Shown here: one piece after another, positions 4,690 to 64,000 of the stretch
How the letters are laid out: the number at the start of each line of letters is the position of its first letter
Position numbering within the stretch: position 1 is the stretch's first letter
Assembly: GCF_000328765.2 (NCBI RefSeq)
Contig: NC_019954.2
Span: 500,501 to 564,500, forward strand
Length of the DNA: 64,000 bases
Source: Tepidanaerobacter acetatoxydans Re1
GTDB lineage: Bacteria > Bacillota > Thermosediminibacteria > Thermosediminibacterales > Tepidanaerobacteraceae
Direction: 5' to 3'
Translations under genes and position numbers: made by a program
Notes under the pieces: generated by a model
Seen by the model: the letters and a program-made list of their open reading frames with translations, nothing else
Databases searched by the model: none
What the model was told of the DNA's origin: nothing

Positions 4690-5592
4690 TTATATGAGCG
4701 TTTCTATCTTGTATTCGCCAAATTTTTCTTGGATCCAAGTGCTAAATGCAGTTGACAGTTTTTCCTCCAGCAAGATATTTTTTACCTCATCCTTGCTTTC
4801 TTCATAAGTTGCTTCTTTTGCCTCTTTTTTGTCTTCAACCTTGATAATATGATAGCCGAATTCTGTCTTTACAGGATCACTAATTTCTCCTGCCTTTAGA
4901 GAAAAGGCGGCTTCTTCAAACTCTGGGGTCATTTGTCCCTTTGAAAAGTAGCCAAGCTCTCCACCCTGCTGATTATTTGAGGTGTCGGTAGAATAAGTCT
5001 TTGCAAGTTCTGCAAAATCTTCTCCGTCTTGCAATTTCTGCTTAACCTCTTTTGCTTTTTCTTCAGTGTCGACCAAAATATGGCTTGCCTTTACCTGCTC
5101 CGGCGTGTCAAAACTTGCTTTATTCTCATCAAAATAGCTCTTTATTTCGCTTTCCTCTATTTTAATTGTAGGTTCAAGCAGTTTTTTGACATTTAGATTC
5201 ATTTTAATGTTCTCTTTTATCTCATCTAAAGAATAGCCATACATTTCAAGAAACTGAGTAAGTGCTTCTTCGCCGCCGTATTGCTCGGCCAGTTTATCGA
5301 CTTCTTTTTGCACATCTTCTTCTGACACAGTTATATTTTGTTTTTTAGCCTCAAGCTCCACTATTTTATTGGCGATTAAGGAATTTAATACTGCGTCGCC
5401 GTTTTCTTGAACTAACGCATCATACAATTCATCCCTCGTAATAACTTCATCATTGATACGTGCAACTACATTGTTGTCAGCCTTTTTAGCCGATGTGCTC
5501 GTATTACAAGCAGATAAAATTAATGGTATTGCCAATGATAAAACTATGATCGAAGCTAGAAATTTTTTGTGCTTAATTAAAATTGTCCTCAC
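4690..5592 (-). CDS. prsA: PrsA/SurA-like peptidyl-prolyl isomerase lipoprotein
   Basis: This is an extracellular membrane-anchored foldase. The N-terminus has a basic stretch, a hydrophobic segment and the lipobox LSAC near residue 29, so it is a predicted lipoprotein. A SurA-N-like helical region (about residues 40-160, charged) is followed by a parvulin domain at about 165-258 with [37 protein letters not shown] and [10 protein letters not shown]. The 300 residues fit PrsA. The first codon given is GTG, but this GTG overlaps the only good ribosome site (AAAGGGTGAGGA), so the true start may be a few codons downstream, possibly a rare ATT. The symbol is by similarity. Confidence 0.88.
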
Positions 5593-58480: not shown

Positions 58481-58747
58481 CAACACCTTCGCAATTACCT
58501 CCTAAAGCATACTAGACATCTGGGATATTCATCTTACATCAAAACTCCTCCTAAAGTTGACTAGAGAAATAGCAGACTGCTGCAAAAAAGCAGCCGTTTT
58601 ATGGGCCGCTGTAGGTGGGGCTCTTCAGTGAACCATTTTTATGCTATAATAATAAAATACAGCAAAATTATTATTGAATTCAAAACAATTACAAGTAAAA
58701 TTTGGAATAATGGTAATTGGTAAAAATATTGAGGCGGAGGAAAGTAA

Positions 58748-59100
58748 ATGGCAATAAAAAAAGCGATTTATACAGTAAGCTTTGGCAAAGCTGTGATGAA
58801 TTAAGAGGCGGCATGGATGCCTCACAATATAAAGATTGTGTGTTGGTGCGGCTATTTGTGAAATATGTAACGGATAAATATTATGGAAAGCCGGATTCAT
58901 TATTGGTAGTGCCTGATGGCGGAAGTTTTCACGATATGGTGAAGCTAAAAGGAAATAGTGAAATCGGCGACGGAATGAATAAGATAATTCATAGGCTTGC
59001 CGAAGAAAATGATCTGGTAGGGATTATAACAGTAGCGGATTTTAATGATGATGACAAACTGGGCAAGGGGAAGGAAAAGGTAGACAGACTGAGCTTTTAG
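58748..59100 (+). pseudogene. hsdM: Type I restriction methylase HsdM, N-terminal fragment
   Basis: ATG 58748 with GGAGG starts MAIKK, then the frame is lost in a run of seven A (58756-58762). The family sequence resumes in another frame with KKSDLYSKLWQSCDELRGGMDASQYKDCVLVRLFVKYVTDKYYG. It breaks off after KVDRLS near 59096, where an antisense HNH fragment joins. About 115 residues of a roughly 500-residue protein remain. The catalytic NPPF part is gone. Confidence 0.85.
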
Positions 59101-59393: not shown

Positions 59394-59733
59394 ATGGTAC
59401 AAAGAAAATATAGTGATGAATTCAGTAATACCTGCCCTATGCCCCTTATGAGTACATATACGACAATGCCGGTGATAGAGGCCAGCCGGCTGTAAGGCAT
59501 GCAAGTCTACTTTCTATCCTAATAAGGCTTATTTGGAGAAACTTACGCTTAAATGCCCATATTGTGGTAGACCTCTTCAGAAAAAAACACGACCGTAAGC
59601 AGTTCTTCGTTTATTCGTGTTATGCTACTTCTGCTGCCAGGGTGATTAAACCATATATCGATAATTATCCTTATGTGCTTTCTGATTCCATCGCTATTTG
59701 CGGTGATAAGACTTATGTTAATGCTCATGGTTA
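59394..59733 (+). pseudogene. DDE transposase remnant with zinc-finger head
   Basis: Starting VQRKYSDEF at ATG 59394, the family sequence can be followed through at least three frameshifts: PYEYIYDNAGDRGQPA, CKACKSTFYPNKAYLEKLTLKCPYCGRPLQKK, DRKQFFVYSC, then a large internal deletion, then VIKPYIDNYPYVLSDSIAICGDKTYVNAHG. The two Cys pairs form a zinc ribbon. A CCTAACG/CGTTAGG inverted pair flanks its left side (59318-59324, 59374-59380). The IS family was not identified. Confidence 0.65.
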
Positions 59734-59840: not shown

Positions 59841-59889
59841 AAAAAATGGCAAACAGAACCCAGAGAATATTGTATTTGGGTTCTGTTTG
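59841..59889 (-). terminator. Strong terminator of the secreted-protein unit
   Basis: On the minus strand the 13-bp perfect stem CAAACAGAACCCA/TGGGTTCTGTTTG (59889-59850) is followed by CCATTTTTT. It lies 27 bp past the stop of the zinc-ribbon gene. Confidence 0.85.
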
Positions 59890-59916
59890 ATAGCATGTGG
59901 GACTATAAAAATATTC

Positions 59917-60156
59917 CTAATCTTCGTATAGTATTATTATTATTTTGCAATTACGGCATACATATGCATGCGGCCACTGTGGGGCTAAAGACAAGAAATT
60001 TGGTGCAAGACGTATTGCTCCTTTTTTGTTCATTGCCTGTTTAGAATATAGTATTGGAACACTTTCGCCTGCGGGTAAGTAAAAATTACCACCTCTGCTT
60101 CGAAGCGTTCCCTCTTCTAAAGGATTTCCGCAATATGGGCATGTTTGTGTCGTCAT
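59917..60156 (-). CDS. Zinc-ribbon protein, DUF6487-like
   Basis: The 79-residue protein begins MTTQTCPYCGNPLEEGTLRSRGG and ends YVCRNCKIIIILYED, so two Cys pairs (CPYC at 6-9, CRNC near 70-73) form a zinc ribbon of the DUF6487 kind. The ATG lies five bases past the stop of the secreted-protein gene, with no ribosome site of its own, so translation is probably coupled. Function is unknown; in this unit a regulator or immunity-like partner is possible but only a guess. Confidence 0.75.
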   Translation of the reverse strand: MTTQTCPYCGNPLEEGTLRSRGGNFYLPAGESVPILYSKQAMNKKGAIRLAPNFLSLAPQWPHAYVCRNCKIIIILYED

Positions 60157-60161
60157 AGGCT

Positions 60162-61070
60162 TTATGAATAGCTGCTTACACCAGGATAAGTGTACGCCCA
60201 AAAGTCACAGAACATCCAATACGCTACTGCGTTTGTACGCCAAGGAAGATAACCCTCATAATAATACTCCGATGAATAGCCCCCACCACTTAAAGCTACT
60301 TGGTATCTTTTTGCATCATAGATGTTCTCACGAGAAGTACTCACATCACGAGCTTTCACATTATAGTTAGTCGTTCGAACATAGTATTGCTTTGCAATCG
60401 CACCCTGTACAATCCCACCGACAATTGTCGTTCCTGCTGCGTATGCAGCAGCATATAGAAGATTTGTAGAAACAACCGAAAGTGCAGGACAAATAACCGT
60501 TAAAGCAGCAGCGATAACACCAATTACTATTGAAGCAACAGCACCTTGTGCGGCATTAACTGTTTCATACTCATAAGTAGTACTTCCAGTTTCCTGATAG
60601 ATAGACAGTTTATCATTATATTGGTTCCCAAATGAATCATAATACGTATTATAGTTTATTCTTCCTTGATAAGAATATGAAGATATAGATTTTGGGGATT
60701 CAGTAGTTGTATGTGAATAGCTAAGATAATTTGAAAGCGGCTCAATGTAAGACCGTGACACAGCGTTAGCTATATCGTTATAAACAATGCGGACACTGCT
60801 TGATTTATTAATAGAATCAACACCGGCAGAATTAATTTCAAGAAGCGTAACATCTGCAGTATTAATCAAAACTCCATCAATATAATAATCTACATGAGCC
60901 GTACCGATTTGAGATGATGAAATATGTACGGTGTTTGTTTTACCCTCACCATCAATAAAGGACGAAACTTGAACCCCTTCAAGTGCATTCGACTCACTCG
61001 CAGCAAATGCAGGTGTTGTGAAGGTAAAAATCATAGTCATAGTTAGCAATAAGGCTATTATTTTTTTCAT
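60162..61070 (-). CDS. Unrecognised secreted protein with hydrophobic Gly/Ala core
   Basis: The 302-residue protein has a clear signal peptide (about 1-23, ending AFA). Residues 24-175 are polar and rich in Ser, Tyr and Thr. Residues about 176-232 form a Gly/Ala-rich hydrophobic stretch (GAVASIVIGVIAAALTVICPALSVV then LLYAAAYAAGTTIVGGIVQG) that could be a membrane hairpin. The C-terminal 70 residues are Tyr/aromatic-rich (YQVALSGGGYSSEYYYEGYLPW). AAAGGAG precedes the ATG. The plan recalls large secreted bacteriocins or pore formers such as the geobacillin-26 type, but no real match was recognised. The gene is intact amid broken ones. Confidence 0.75.
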   Translation of the reverse strand: MKKIIALLLTMTMIFTFTTPAFAASESNALEGVQVSSFIDGEGKTNTVHISSSQIGTAHVDYYIDGVLINTADVTLLEINSAGVDSINKSSSVRIVYNDIANAVSRSYIEPLSNYLSYSHTTTESPKSISSYSYQGRINYNTYYDSFGNQYNDKLSIYQETGSTTYEYETVNAAQGAVASIVIGVIAAALTVICPALSVVSTNLLYAAAYAAGTTIVGGIVQGAIAKQYYVRTTNYNVKARDVSTSRENIYDAKRYQVALSGGGYSSEYYYEGYLPWRTNAVAYWMFCDFWAYTYPGVSSYS

Positions 61071-61112
61071 TATTAACTCCTTTCACAAAGCAAACCGTAA
61101 CTTTTCTAATTT

Positions 61113-61154
61113 AAAAAGCGCACAAGCAGACCATCAGCAGTCCGGCTTATGCGC
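61113..61154 (-). terminator. Strong hairpin between small ORF and secreted-protein gene
   Basis: On the minus strand GCGCATAAGC pairs with GCTTGTGCGC (one G-U) and TTTTT follows. The TAA stop of the small ORF lies inside the first arm. Only 42 bp separate it from the ATG of the secreted protein, and no promoter is obvious there, so it may be an attenuator. Confidence 0.8.
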
Positions 61155-61251
61155 CCATATGAATGATTTTGATTTGTCCTCTCCATAACTGTGGACTGCA
61201 CCAAAACTGTATTCGCCATAACCCAGACTGTTTGCCGTCAAAACGATACAT
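61147..61251 (-). CDS. Small ORF, 34 codons, with good ribosome site
   Basis: On the minus strand GGAGG lies seven bases before ATG 61251. The product MYRFDGKQSGLWRIQFWCSP continues QLWRGQIKIIHMGA; it is basic with three Trp. The next frame is also open and reads LGYGEYSFGAVHSYGEDKSK then SFIWAHKPDC, ending in the same hairpin and looking more protein-like, so a frameshifted or differently started peptide gene is possible. No family was recognised in either frame. Confidence 0.4.
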   Translation of the reverse strand: MYRFDGKQSGLWRIQFWCSPQLWRGQIKIIHMGA

Positions 61252-61305
61252 GATGTTACCTCCAATCATATCAATAGTCAAATAGAATATTCTACTTGCA
61301 AGTTA

Positions 61306-61334
61306 AGCATAACGCATCTAAACAAATTATTCAA
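61306..61334 (-). promoter_or_regulatory. Candidate promoter of the secreted-protein unit
   Basis: On the minus strand TTGAAT (61334-61329), a 17-bp spacer and TATGCT (61311-61306). It lies 55 bp before the small ORF. Confidence 0.5.
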
Positions 61335-61536
61335 TATTTTTGCCCGGATTAGATCGCGTCAAGTAATCTTAGGTTTTTTACAAGACCTCTACCAGCCTTG
61401 CTACAGAATAAATTAGCTCTATTTTATGCCTTAATTATGGCGGTTTACACAAAATATGGGACACATCCTAAGCGGATTTAGGAATGAATAAATATGTTTT
61501 GCAAACTGAAAAGAAACTTTCAAACAAAGGGTTTAA

Positions 61537-61836
61537 TTTGTCTACTATAGCCTCCTCTATTTAACACCGAAAATAAGGGAAATGGCATCAGAGCAAGCTA
61601 TCCCCATTATTAATAAATCAACATTTGAGACAATAGAAATCTTCCTCCCACCCCTTGAAGAACAAAAAGCCGTTGCCGAGGTTTTGCCCGATATAGATGA
61701 ATTAATAACATCAATAGAGAAATTAATAGATAAAAAACAGAAAATAAAGCAGGGCACAATGCAGCTTTTGCTAACAGGCAAAAAACGATTACCAGGATTT
61801 ACCGGGGAGTGGGAAGTAAAGAGGCTGCAGGATTAA
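61537..61836 (+). pseudogene. hsdS: Type I restriction specificity subunit HsdS, internal fragment
   Basis: The frame is open from 61537 (FVYYSLLYLTPKIREM) through EQAIPIINKSTFETIEIFLPPLEEQKAVAEVLPDIDELI (the conserved end of a target-recognition half) and the central KQGTMQLLLTGKKRLPGFTGEWEVKRL, then stops. Both flanks are gone: no start upstream and the following hsdR piece joins directly at about 61830. An ATG at 61582 is internal to the homology. Confidence 0.82.
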
Positions 61837-63218
61837 AAGAATGTGCCATAGTGACATCTTACAGCCCTAATATAAATGACATTAAAGGCGAGACTACCGG
61901 AGAAAATAAAGCTACTGAAAATGTAGAAAAATACAGGATCTATCAAAAGATGCTTAACGGTAAAAGTCCAGAAGTATTTGAAGAAGAAGTAAAAAGGAAA
62001 TTTATAGATGAACCTGCTCAGATGAAGCTGCTCATTGTGGTGGATAAATTGCTTACAGGTTTTGATGCACCTCCGGCAACATATTTATACATTGACAAAA
62101 GCATGAAGGATCATGCCTTATTCCAAGCTATATGCCGTGTAAATCGGCTTGACGGCGATGATAAAGAATATGGTTATATAGTCGATTATATGGATTTATT
62201 TAAAAGCCTGCAAAAATCTGTAAAAGATTATACATCAGAAGCCTTTTCAGGCTATGATGAGGAAGATGTTAGAGGGCTACTTAGCGACAGATTGGAAAAA
62301 GCTAAAGAGCATTTGGATGAAGCTTTGGAAAAGGTAAAAGCGCTCTGCGAGCCGGTAGAACCTCCTAAAGATACACGTCAGTATATCAGATATTTTTGCT
62401 GGGAAAATATTTTTAGAAGCGAAGAAGAACTGAAAGAAAAAGAAGAAAAGCGATTAGCCCTTTATAAGTATACTACTTCGCTAATCAGAGCCTATGCCAA
62501 TATTGCAAATGAGATGGAAGAAGCCGGATATACCCCTAAAGAAATAGAAGACATAAAAAATGATGTAAAACATTTTAATACTGTTCGCAGAGAAGTAATG
62601 CTTGCAGCAAATGATAATATAGATTTAAAATCCTATGAACCAGCTATGAGACATTTAATTGACAATTGTATAAGTGCAGATGAAAGCAGGCAGATTTCCG
62701 CCTTTGAGGATATGACATTGATTGAGTTGATCGTTAATCGCGGAGAAGATTTTATCAAGGAACTGCCGGATGATATAAAAAAAGACAAGGAAACCGCAGC
62801 CGAGATTATTGAAAACAATGTGCGCAAACTGATTGTAGAAGAAAAACCTACAAATCCTAAATATTACGAAAATATGTCGGCGCTTTTAGAAGAAGTAATA
62901 AGACAAAGAAAAGCAGCGGCAATATCCTATGAAGAATATTTAAAAAAAGTTGTTGAGATAGCCCAAAAGTCAAAGAATCCAGAAACTGCTTCGGATTATC
63001 CCGTTAATATAAATACCAAAGCCAAAAGAGCAGAGGCAGAAGGTTTTAAAAGAGTGGTACAGACAAGAACTAAAATCCTTAATCCCCCCGCTCATAGAAA
63101 AGTGGGAGCCGATAATGGGAGTTCATGTCAAGTCCTGGGGAGTAAAATCGATGAAAACCAAATGGGGCAGCTGCAATATAAATGCCGGAAGGATTTGGGT
63201 AAATTTAGAACTTGCTAA
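61809..63218 (+). pseudogene. hsdR: Type I restriction endonuclease HsdR, C-terminal fragment
   Basis: Homology starts near 61830 with CAIVTSYSPNINDIKGE and runs through helicase motifs V and VI (MKLLIVVDKLLTGFDAPPATYLYIDKSM and QAICRVNRLDGDDKEYGYIVDYMDL) and the helical C-terminal domain to about VNINTKAKRA near 63040. The nuclease domain and helicase motifs I-IV are absent. Downstream of that the frame is only the wrong frame of a peptidase gene. The piece is still open, so the loss was by deletion, not slow decay. Confidence 0.85.
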
Positions 63219-63372: not shown

Positions 63373-63599
63373 AGGTTTACAATCAATCTCGATGCTATCA
63401 TCTCTGTCGGCTATAGAGTAAATTCTGTTCGCGCGACTCAATTTGGAATATGGACTACGAGAAACCCATATAGATATATTATCAGCTCTGGTGCATAAAC
63501 AGAGTTTCTACACTAGAGCCGATTTTAAATTAATGCAAAACAGTGATATCATGTATTATAGCAAAAATTAAAACAGGAAGGTGAAATAATATAAAATAA

Positions 63600-64000
63600 G
63601 GACACTGCCAGACTAAGATGACTTGTGCTCTGAAAAACTTAAAGGGCTGTATTCCCAACAAAGAAAAGAGAAGATTTCATACTATGGGACTGCATAAACC
63701 CATTGCATACCTAAATAAAGCCGTTAAAAGCGACTTGATAATAGTAGATGGACTGGTAGGAGATTTAAACTTTGAAGAAGGCGGCAATCCTGTTCAAATG
63801 GACAGAATTATCCTGGGGTTTGATCCGGTTTTAGTCGATTCATATGTAGCAAATTTAATGGGATATGATGAAAAAGAGATACCGTACATAAAGATAGCGG
63901 AGCAAATAGGTGTGGGAAACTGCATTGCCTCAAAGGAGCAGGTAAATGAATTGAACGAAAATAATAATACTCAAAAAATACCCTACTCACGTGAAATCGA
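63600..64000 (+). pseudogene. DUF362 protein, 5'-truncated, runs off the right edge
   Basis: A frame open to the window edge reads GHCQTKMTCALKNLKGCIPN, KEKRRFHTMGLHKPIAYLNK, SDLIIVDGLVGDLNFEEGG and RIILGFDPVLVDSYVANLMGYD. These are DUF362 motifs from the middle of the protein; an in-frame TAA lies just before (63597-63599) and the first ATG is 63618. An orphan AGGAAGGTG ribosome site lies upstream at about 63577. So the N-terminal third was deleted. The 3' end is outside the window. Confidence 0.75.

Follow-up and report, generated by a model that had tools for sequence, protein, structure and literature searches.

A once-selected, dispensable gene pair encoding a putative exported protein and a DUF6487 zinc ribbon within a broken restriction locus of Tepidanaerobacter acetatoxydans Re1

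The described systems closest to the locus analyzed here are two-gene bacteriocin/immunity operons, polymorphic toxin loci with orphan immunity genes, and the stand-alone members of the zinc ribbon family PF20097 (DUF6487). The locus resembles the first in that a gene whose secreted product carries a hydrophobic, Gly/Ala-rich segment is followed by a small coupled gene. Its resemblance to the second comes from Mahella relatives, in which the N-terminal part is lost while the conserved C-terminal part and the small gene behind it remain. It shares with the third the CPYC and CxxC knuckles and a K/I-rich end, found here in the product of the small gene. DUF6487 is a family without known function, and no mention of it was found in the literature searched. 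A published analysis of T. acetatoxydans Re1 predicts 179 proteins to be secreted or at the cell surface, apparently with Sec as the export route of all of them, and reports no TAT pathway (PMC4374699).

Within the 64,000-nucleotide stretch of DNA that was analyzed (the window; contig positions 500501-564500), the unit lies on the minus strand and runs from position 61334 downward through a promoter-like site, a 34-codon open reading frame (ORF), a hairpin, a gene for a 302-residue protein, a DUF6487 gene, and a terminator (Table 1). A preliminary description had laid out this anatomy, and the ORFs, the hairpin, and the final terminator are all borne out by ORF calls and hairpin statistics; the secreted gene also has a Shine-Dalgarno (SD) sequence. 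Its view that an intact unit sits within a restriction-system graveyard also holds, as hsdM, hsdS, and hsdR are all truncated and accompanied by insertion sequence (IS) remnants. At the far end of the window, positions 63386-64000 are a 97-99.8% copy of 580127-581173, located 16 kb further along the genome, relative to which about 430 bases are absent between the two pieces of the copy.

Table 1 Features of the two-gene unit and its broken surroundings (window positions)
Feature	Position	Strand	Evidence or detail
hsdM N-terminal fragment, HsdM_N only	58717..59100	+	HsdM_N E 1.3e-12
Transposase-like remnant with internal deletion	59439..59722	+	77-82% to sites in its own genome (282 kb) and in G002
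Intrinsic terminator of operon, 13-bp stem then U6	about 59850..59889	-	dG -18.6, z -6.1
DUF6487 zinc ribbon, 79 aa, CPYC ... CRNC	59917..60156	-	PF20097 44.6 bits; ATG start (more likely)
Putative Sec-type exported orphan protein, 302 aa, ATG start	60162..61070	-	SD AAAGGAG
Terminator-like hairpin and U5, between 34-codon ORF and secreted gene	61114..61156	-	dG -24.0, z -4.8
Leader ORF MYRFDGKQSGLWRIQFWCSPQLWRGQIKIIHMGA, 34 aa, ATG 61251 to TAA 61147	61147..61251	-	SD GGAGG
Promoter-like site TTGAAT-17-TATGCT	61306..61334	-	Sequence and consensus scan, 8/12 to consensus
ISLre2/UPF0236-type IS end, 60-bp, right border debris	61352..61411	+	87% to copies in another Tepidanaerobacter genome
hsdS C-terminal fragment	61582..61836	+	Methylase_S E 1.6e-6
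hsdR fragment from domain 3 onward, without N-terminal domains	61809..63218	+	T1R_D3-like E 6.6e-30

The first gene of the pair encodes a protein comprised of a signal peptide (about residues 1-24; MKKIIALLLTMTMIFTFTTPAFAA, Kyte-Doolittle 1.4, by inspection), a polar N-terminal region, a Gly/Ala hydrophobic segment (about residues 172-225, Kyte-Doolittle up to 2.6), and a conserved Tyr/Trp-rich C-terminus (residues 226-302). Judged from sequence, this succession of regions is consistent with an exported membrane-inserting protein. No significant family match was obtained in Pfam, NCBIfam, PHROGs, or PADLOC, with sub-threshold matches arising only in the first three, and a PDB sequence search returned chance matches only. 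A clear match to a known family of unrelated function, which the preliminary description had named as evidence against its reading of the secreted protein, was thus not seen in the databases searched. The matches to Rhabdo_NV, SseC-like (PF04888; 13.8 bits versus a cut-off of 30.2, covering the hydrophobic stretch only), and holin-like families are below cut-off or insignificant, and we put them down to composition. AlphaFold2 models of the whole protein (pLDDT 30, two sequences) and of residues 25-120 alone (pLDDT 38) are both unusable; in these weak models the polar N-terminal part is strand-rich. The searches run on phages, plasmids, and viral contigs with the exported protein and the zinc ribbon found nothing.

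The second gene was previously described as DUF6487-like, and its score for this family is well above the gathering cut-off (44.6 bits versus 24, E 2e-11; 36.9 bits for the Mahella copy); its end at 59917 is confirmed as well. Its start, by contrast, is more likely ATG 60156 (79 aa), which lies 5 nt beyond the secreted-gene stop codon and lacks an obvious SD of its own, than the TTG at 60201 (94 aa) chosen earlier. The CPYC and CRNC knuckles, predicted to bind zinc, are invariant between the window and Mahella zinc ribbons. DUF6487 members in two further genomes (G002 and G023) have no secreted partner beside them; immunity is therefore not a general role of DUF6487 genes. In one of these, a Tepidanaerobacter relative, the stand-alone DUF6487 gene is found among small uncharacterized genes, one of them with DUF6438 (L038; G002:C62, 5200-8600).

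Relatives were sought in several hundred genomes of the same phylum and of the Mahella class, taken as overlapping draws, and by a pattern scan of 84,980 species; the exact peptide patterns of that scan all came from one sequence, so distant relatives could escape it. Among the genomes searched, relatives of the exported protein were found in two Mahella-order genomes only: a Mahella sp. metagenome-assembled genome (locus L003) and a single-contig genome (G838) that, to judge by synteny, is probably Mahella australiensis. In both, a C-terminal piece of the exported protein is followed immediately downstream by a DUF6487 gene. The junction of the two genes in Mahella is an ATGA-type overlap, compared with the 5-nt gap in the window. 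Conservation of the pairing, proposed earlier as a check on the unit, is therefore found in a different order of Clostridia. The L003 and window sequences are 81% identical over 89 residues of the exported protein C-terminus and 50% identical in the zinc ribbon. The two Mahella loci, which share 96% and 92% nucleotide identity over their common stretches, represent one ancestral locus and therefore add a single independent occurrence to that in the window.

Substitution patterns indicate that both products were maintained as proteins. For the C-terminal part of the exported protein, dN is about 0.12, while dS is 1.2 by YN00 or saturated by NG86; of 69 differences, 47 fall at third positions, and constraint on this part was strong. 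For the zinc ribbon, dN is 0.41 against a saturated dS of about 3. Given that dN is far below dS in each, the exported protein and the zinc ribbon were both real and constrained. Of the two explanations offered previously for the intactness of the unit, selection thus gains support as past purifying selection on the exported C-terminus, while recent arrival has no backing from composition. Both genes equal the host average in codon usage (CAI 0.750 versus a gene mean of 0.751) and GC content (0.38 versus 0.372), so that no compositional sign of recent import is present. The presence of the pair in two orders but not in close relatives would fit either transfer or repeated loss.

In both Mahella genomes, the exported-protein gene is without its 5′ part and lies near a group II intron end, the zinc ribbon frame is open, and the N-terminal half of the exported-protein gene was found in neither neighborhood. 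In L003, homology sets in sharply at about residue 214, where a repeat element (4759-4999) has its 3′ edge; this element is preceded by the group II intron end, terminates in GGAGTTTCCGAAAGTACTC, and is present in about 20 copies in the genome. Several inspected copies of this repeat end some 10-20 bases before an SD-like sequence; the repeat may represent either a small mobile element or a leader motif. In G838, the end of the group II intron lies immediately before about residue 249, and shortly beyond that point the frame is lost to a 1-base deletion. The zinc ribbons of the two Mahella copies differ by 6 changes, 4 of which are at first or second codon positions, and there is consequently little sign of present constraint on this gene in Mahella. 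An immunity gene would be expected to outlive the secreted gene in this way, but chance damage proceeding from the 5′ side would equally leave the small gene in place. Because the secreted gene has decayed in Mahella, the two-gene unit is dispensable. We conclude that the unit is a real cassette of two genes that was once under selection, is dispensable, and resembles its host in codon usage.

We propose that this cassette may act as an accessory operon that outlasted the mobile elements and deletions that wrecked the restriction locus around it. The product of gene 1 would be exported through Sec, with its Gly/Ala-rich segment probably residing in or inserting into a membrane, and would display the conserved Tyr/Trp-rich C-terminus. 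The start of gene 2 is coupled to the gene 1 end, and its product, a DUF6487 zinc ribbon in the cytosol, would cooperate with the gene 1 product, give protection from it, or regulate it; the partnership of the two products is putative, as is any antagonistic role. Our tentative reading is that the pair may encode an envelope- or competitor-directed membrane-active factor and a dedicated cytosolic partner. The signal peptide, the hydrophobic stretch, the conserved gene order, the coupling, the constraint, and the strong terminator after gene 2 speak for this reading. Against it stand the breakage of the secreted gene in both Mahella genomes, the partnerless DUF6487 members of G002 and G023, the unusable structure models, and the Pfam, NCBIfam, PHROGs, and PADLOC searches, which gave no toxin or bacteriocin family match. 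A zinc ribbon that is soluble and cytosolic would, moreover, be an unusual immunity factor for a membrane-active product. The narrower suggestion made earlier, that of a secreted toxin or bacteriocin-like factor, finds no positive support, as the unit lacks a toxin-family match, an exporter, a usable structure, and any maturation or immunity gene of a kind already described.

The Sec signal, the Tyr-rich C-terminus, and the missing toxin match would also suit an envelope or surface protein without any antagonism, that is, a structural or spore/cell-surface factor whose expression or folding is regulated by the zinc ribbon. A large surface-protein-like gene adjoins the Mahella locus (by inspection), and the sparse distribution of the pair fits accessory surface proteins too. 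We nevertheless hold this alternative to be somewhat unlikely, in view of the loss of the protein in Mahella, its absence from the two other Tepidanaerobacter genomes, and its sequence, in which no surface-anchor motif was seen. It is more doubtful still that the pair is an orphan, decaying cassette, useful in another lineage or at another time and too recent here to have broken. The broken surroundings, the truncated or frameshifted secreted gene of Mahella, and the codon positions of the changes between the Mahella zinc ribbons would all be expected of such a cassette, but the frames, the SD of the secreted gene, and the terminator are intact in the window, and the codon usage is host-like.

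Upstream of the secreted gene, the signals are less certain. The promoter reported earlier is present as a sequence, but it is a weak match that is inseparable from chance, with further weak minus-strand sites nearby in the consensus scan (61362-61333 and 61281-61253) and promoter-like matches abundant in this AT-rich DNA (21 observed versus 11.9 ± 3.4 in shuffles). The hairpin preceding the secreted gene and the final terminator each outscore all 200 of 200 shuffles, no RNA family was found in the unit with Rfam, and the hairpin is a possible attenuator. The small ORF of the preliminary description is retained as a frame with a good SD, but its coding score is below background and no relatives of it were found; we therefore treat it as a leader and not as a demonstrated gene. 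It contains 3 Trp codons among its 34, its stop lies inside the 5′ arm of the hairpin, and the layout of ORF and hairpin resembles that of an attenuator. When the ORF was read as part of a frameshifted gene with a second frame, YGEYSFGAVHSYGEDKSKSFIWAHKPDC, the joined reading gave one weak match, which is antisense in a HAD-type hydrolase gene and therefore due to chance. Control of the operon by this leader through attenuation, with translation of the ORF determining whether transcription reads through to the secreted gene, would be compatible with the other readings and draws on the SD, the Trp codons, the placement of the stop, and the z score of the hairpin, but it is improbable given the coding score, the lack of a conserved leader elsewhere (the Mahella copies being without the 5′ part), and the separate promoter that the secreted gene could own.

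Returning to a membrane-active factor with a cytosolic partner, it is a long shot that the pair embodies a new kind of secreted, membrane-active antagonism factor, with a coupled DUF6487 zinc ribbon in the cytosol protecting or regulating the producing cell. If true, this would be the first function for DUF6487. The conserved pairing with an exported orphan protein provides a handle for testing one subset of the family; beyond that, the unit is another rare accessory cassette in a syntrophic acetate-oxidizing bacterium.

Set against bacteriocin/immunity operons, the unit differs in having a Sec signal and no double-Gly leader, a product of 302 aa, and a soluble zinc ribbon as partner, with no exporter or known family match. 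It departs from polymorphic toxins and their orphan immunity genes in that the loss in Mahella adjoins debris of group II intron and repeat origin, conservation is higher in the C-terminus than in the partner, and no toxin- or trafficking-domain match is present. Relative to the stand-alone PF20097 members, which score 73-77 bits, the window and Mahella zinc ribbons score well lower, and the DUF6487 gene of the window is coupled to an exported-protein gene, whereas the other members seen here stand alone.
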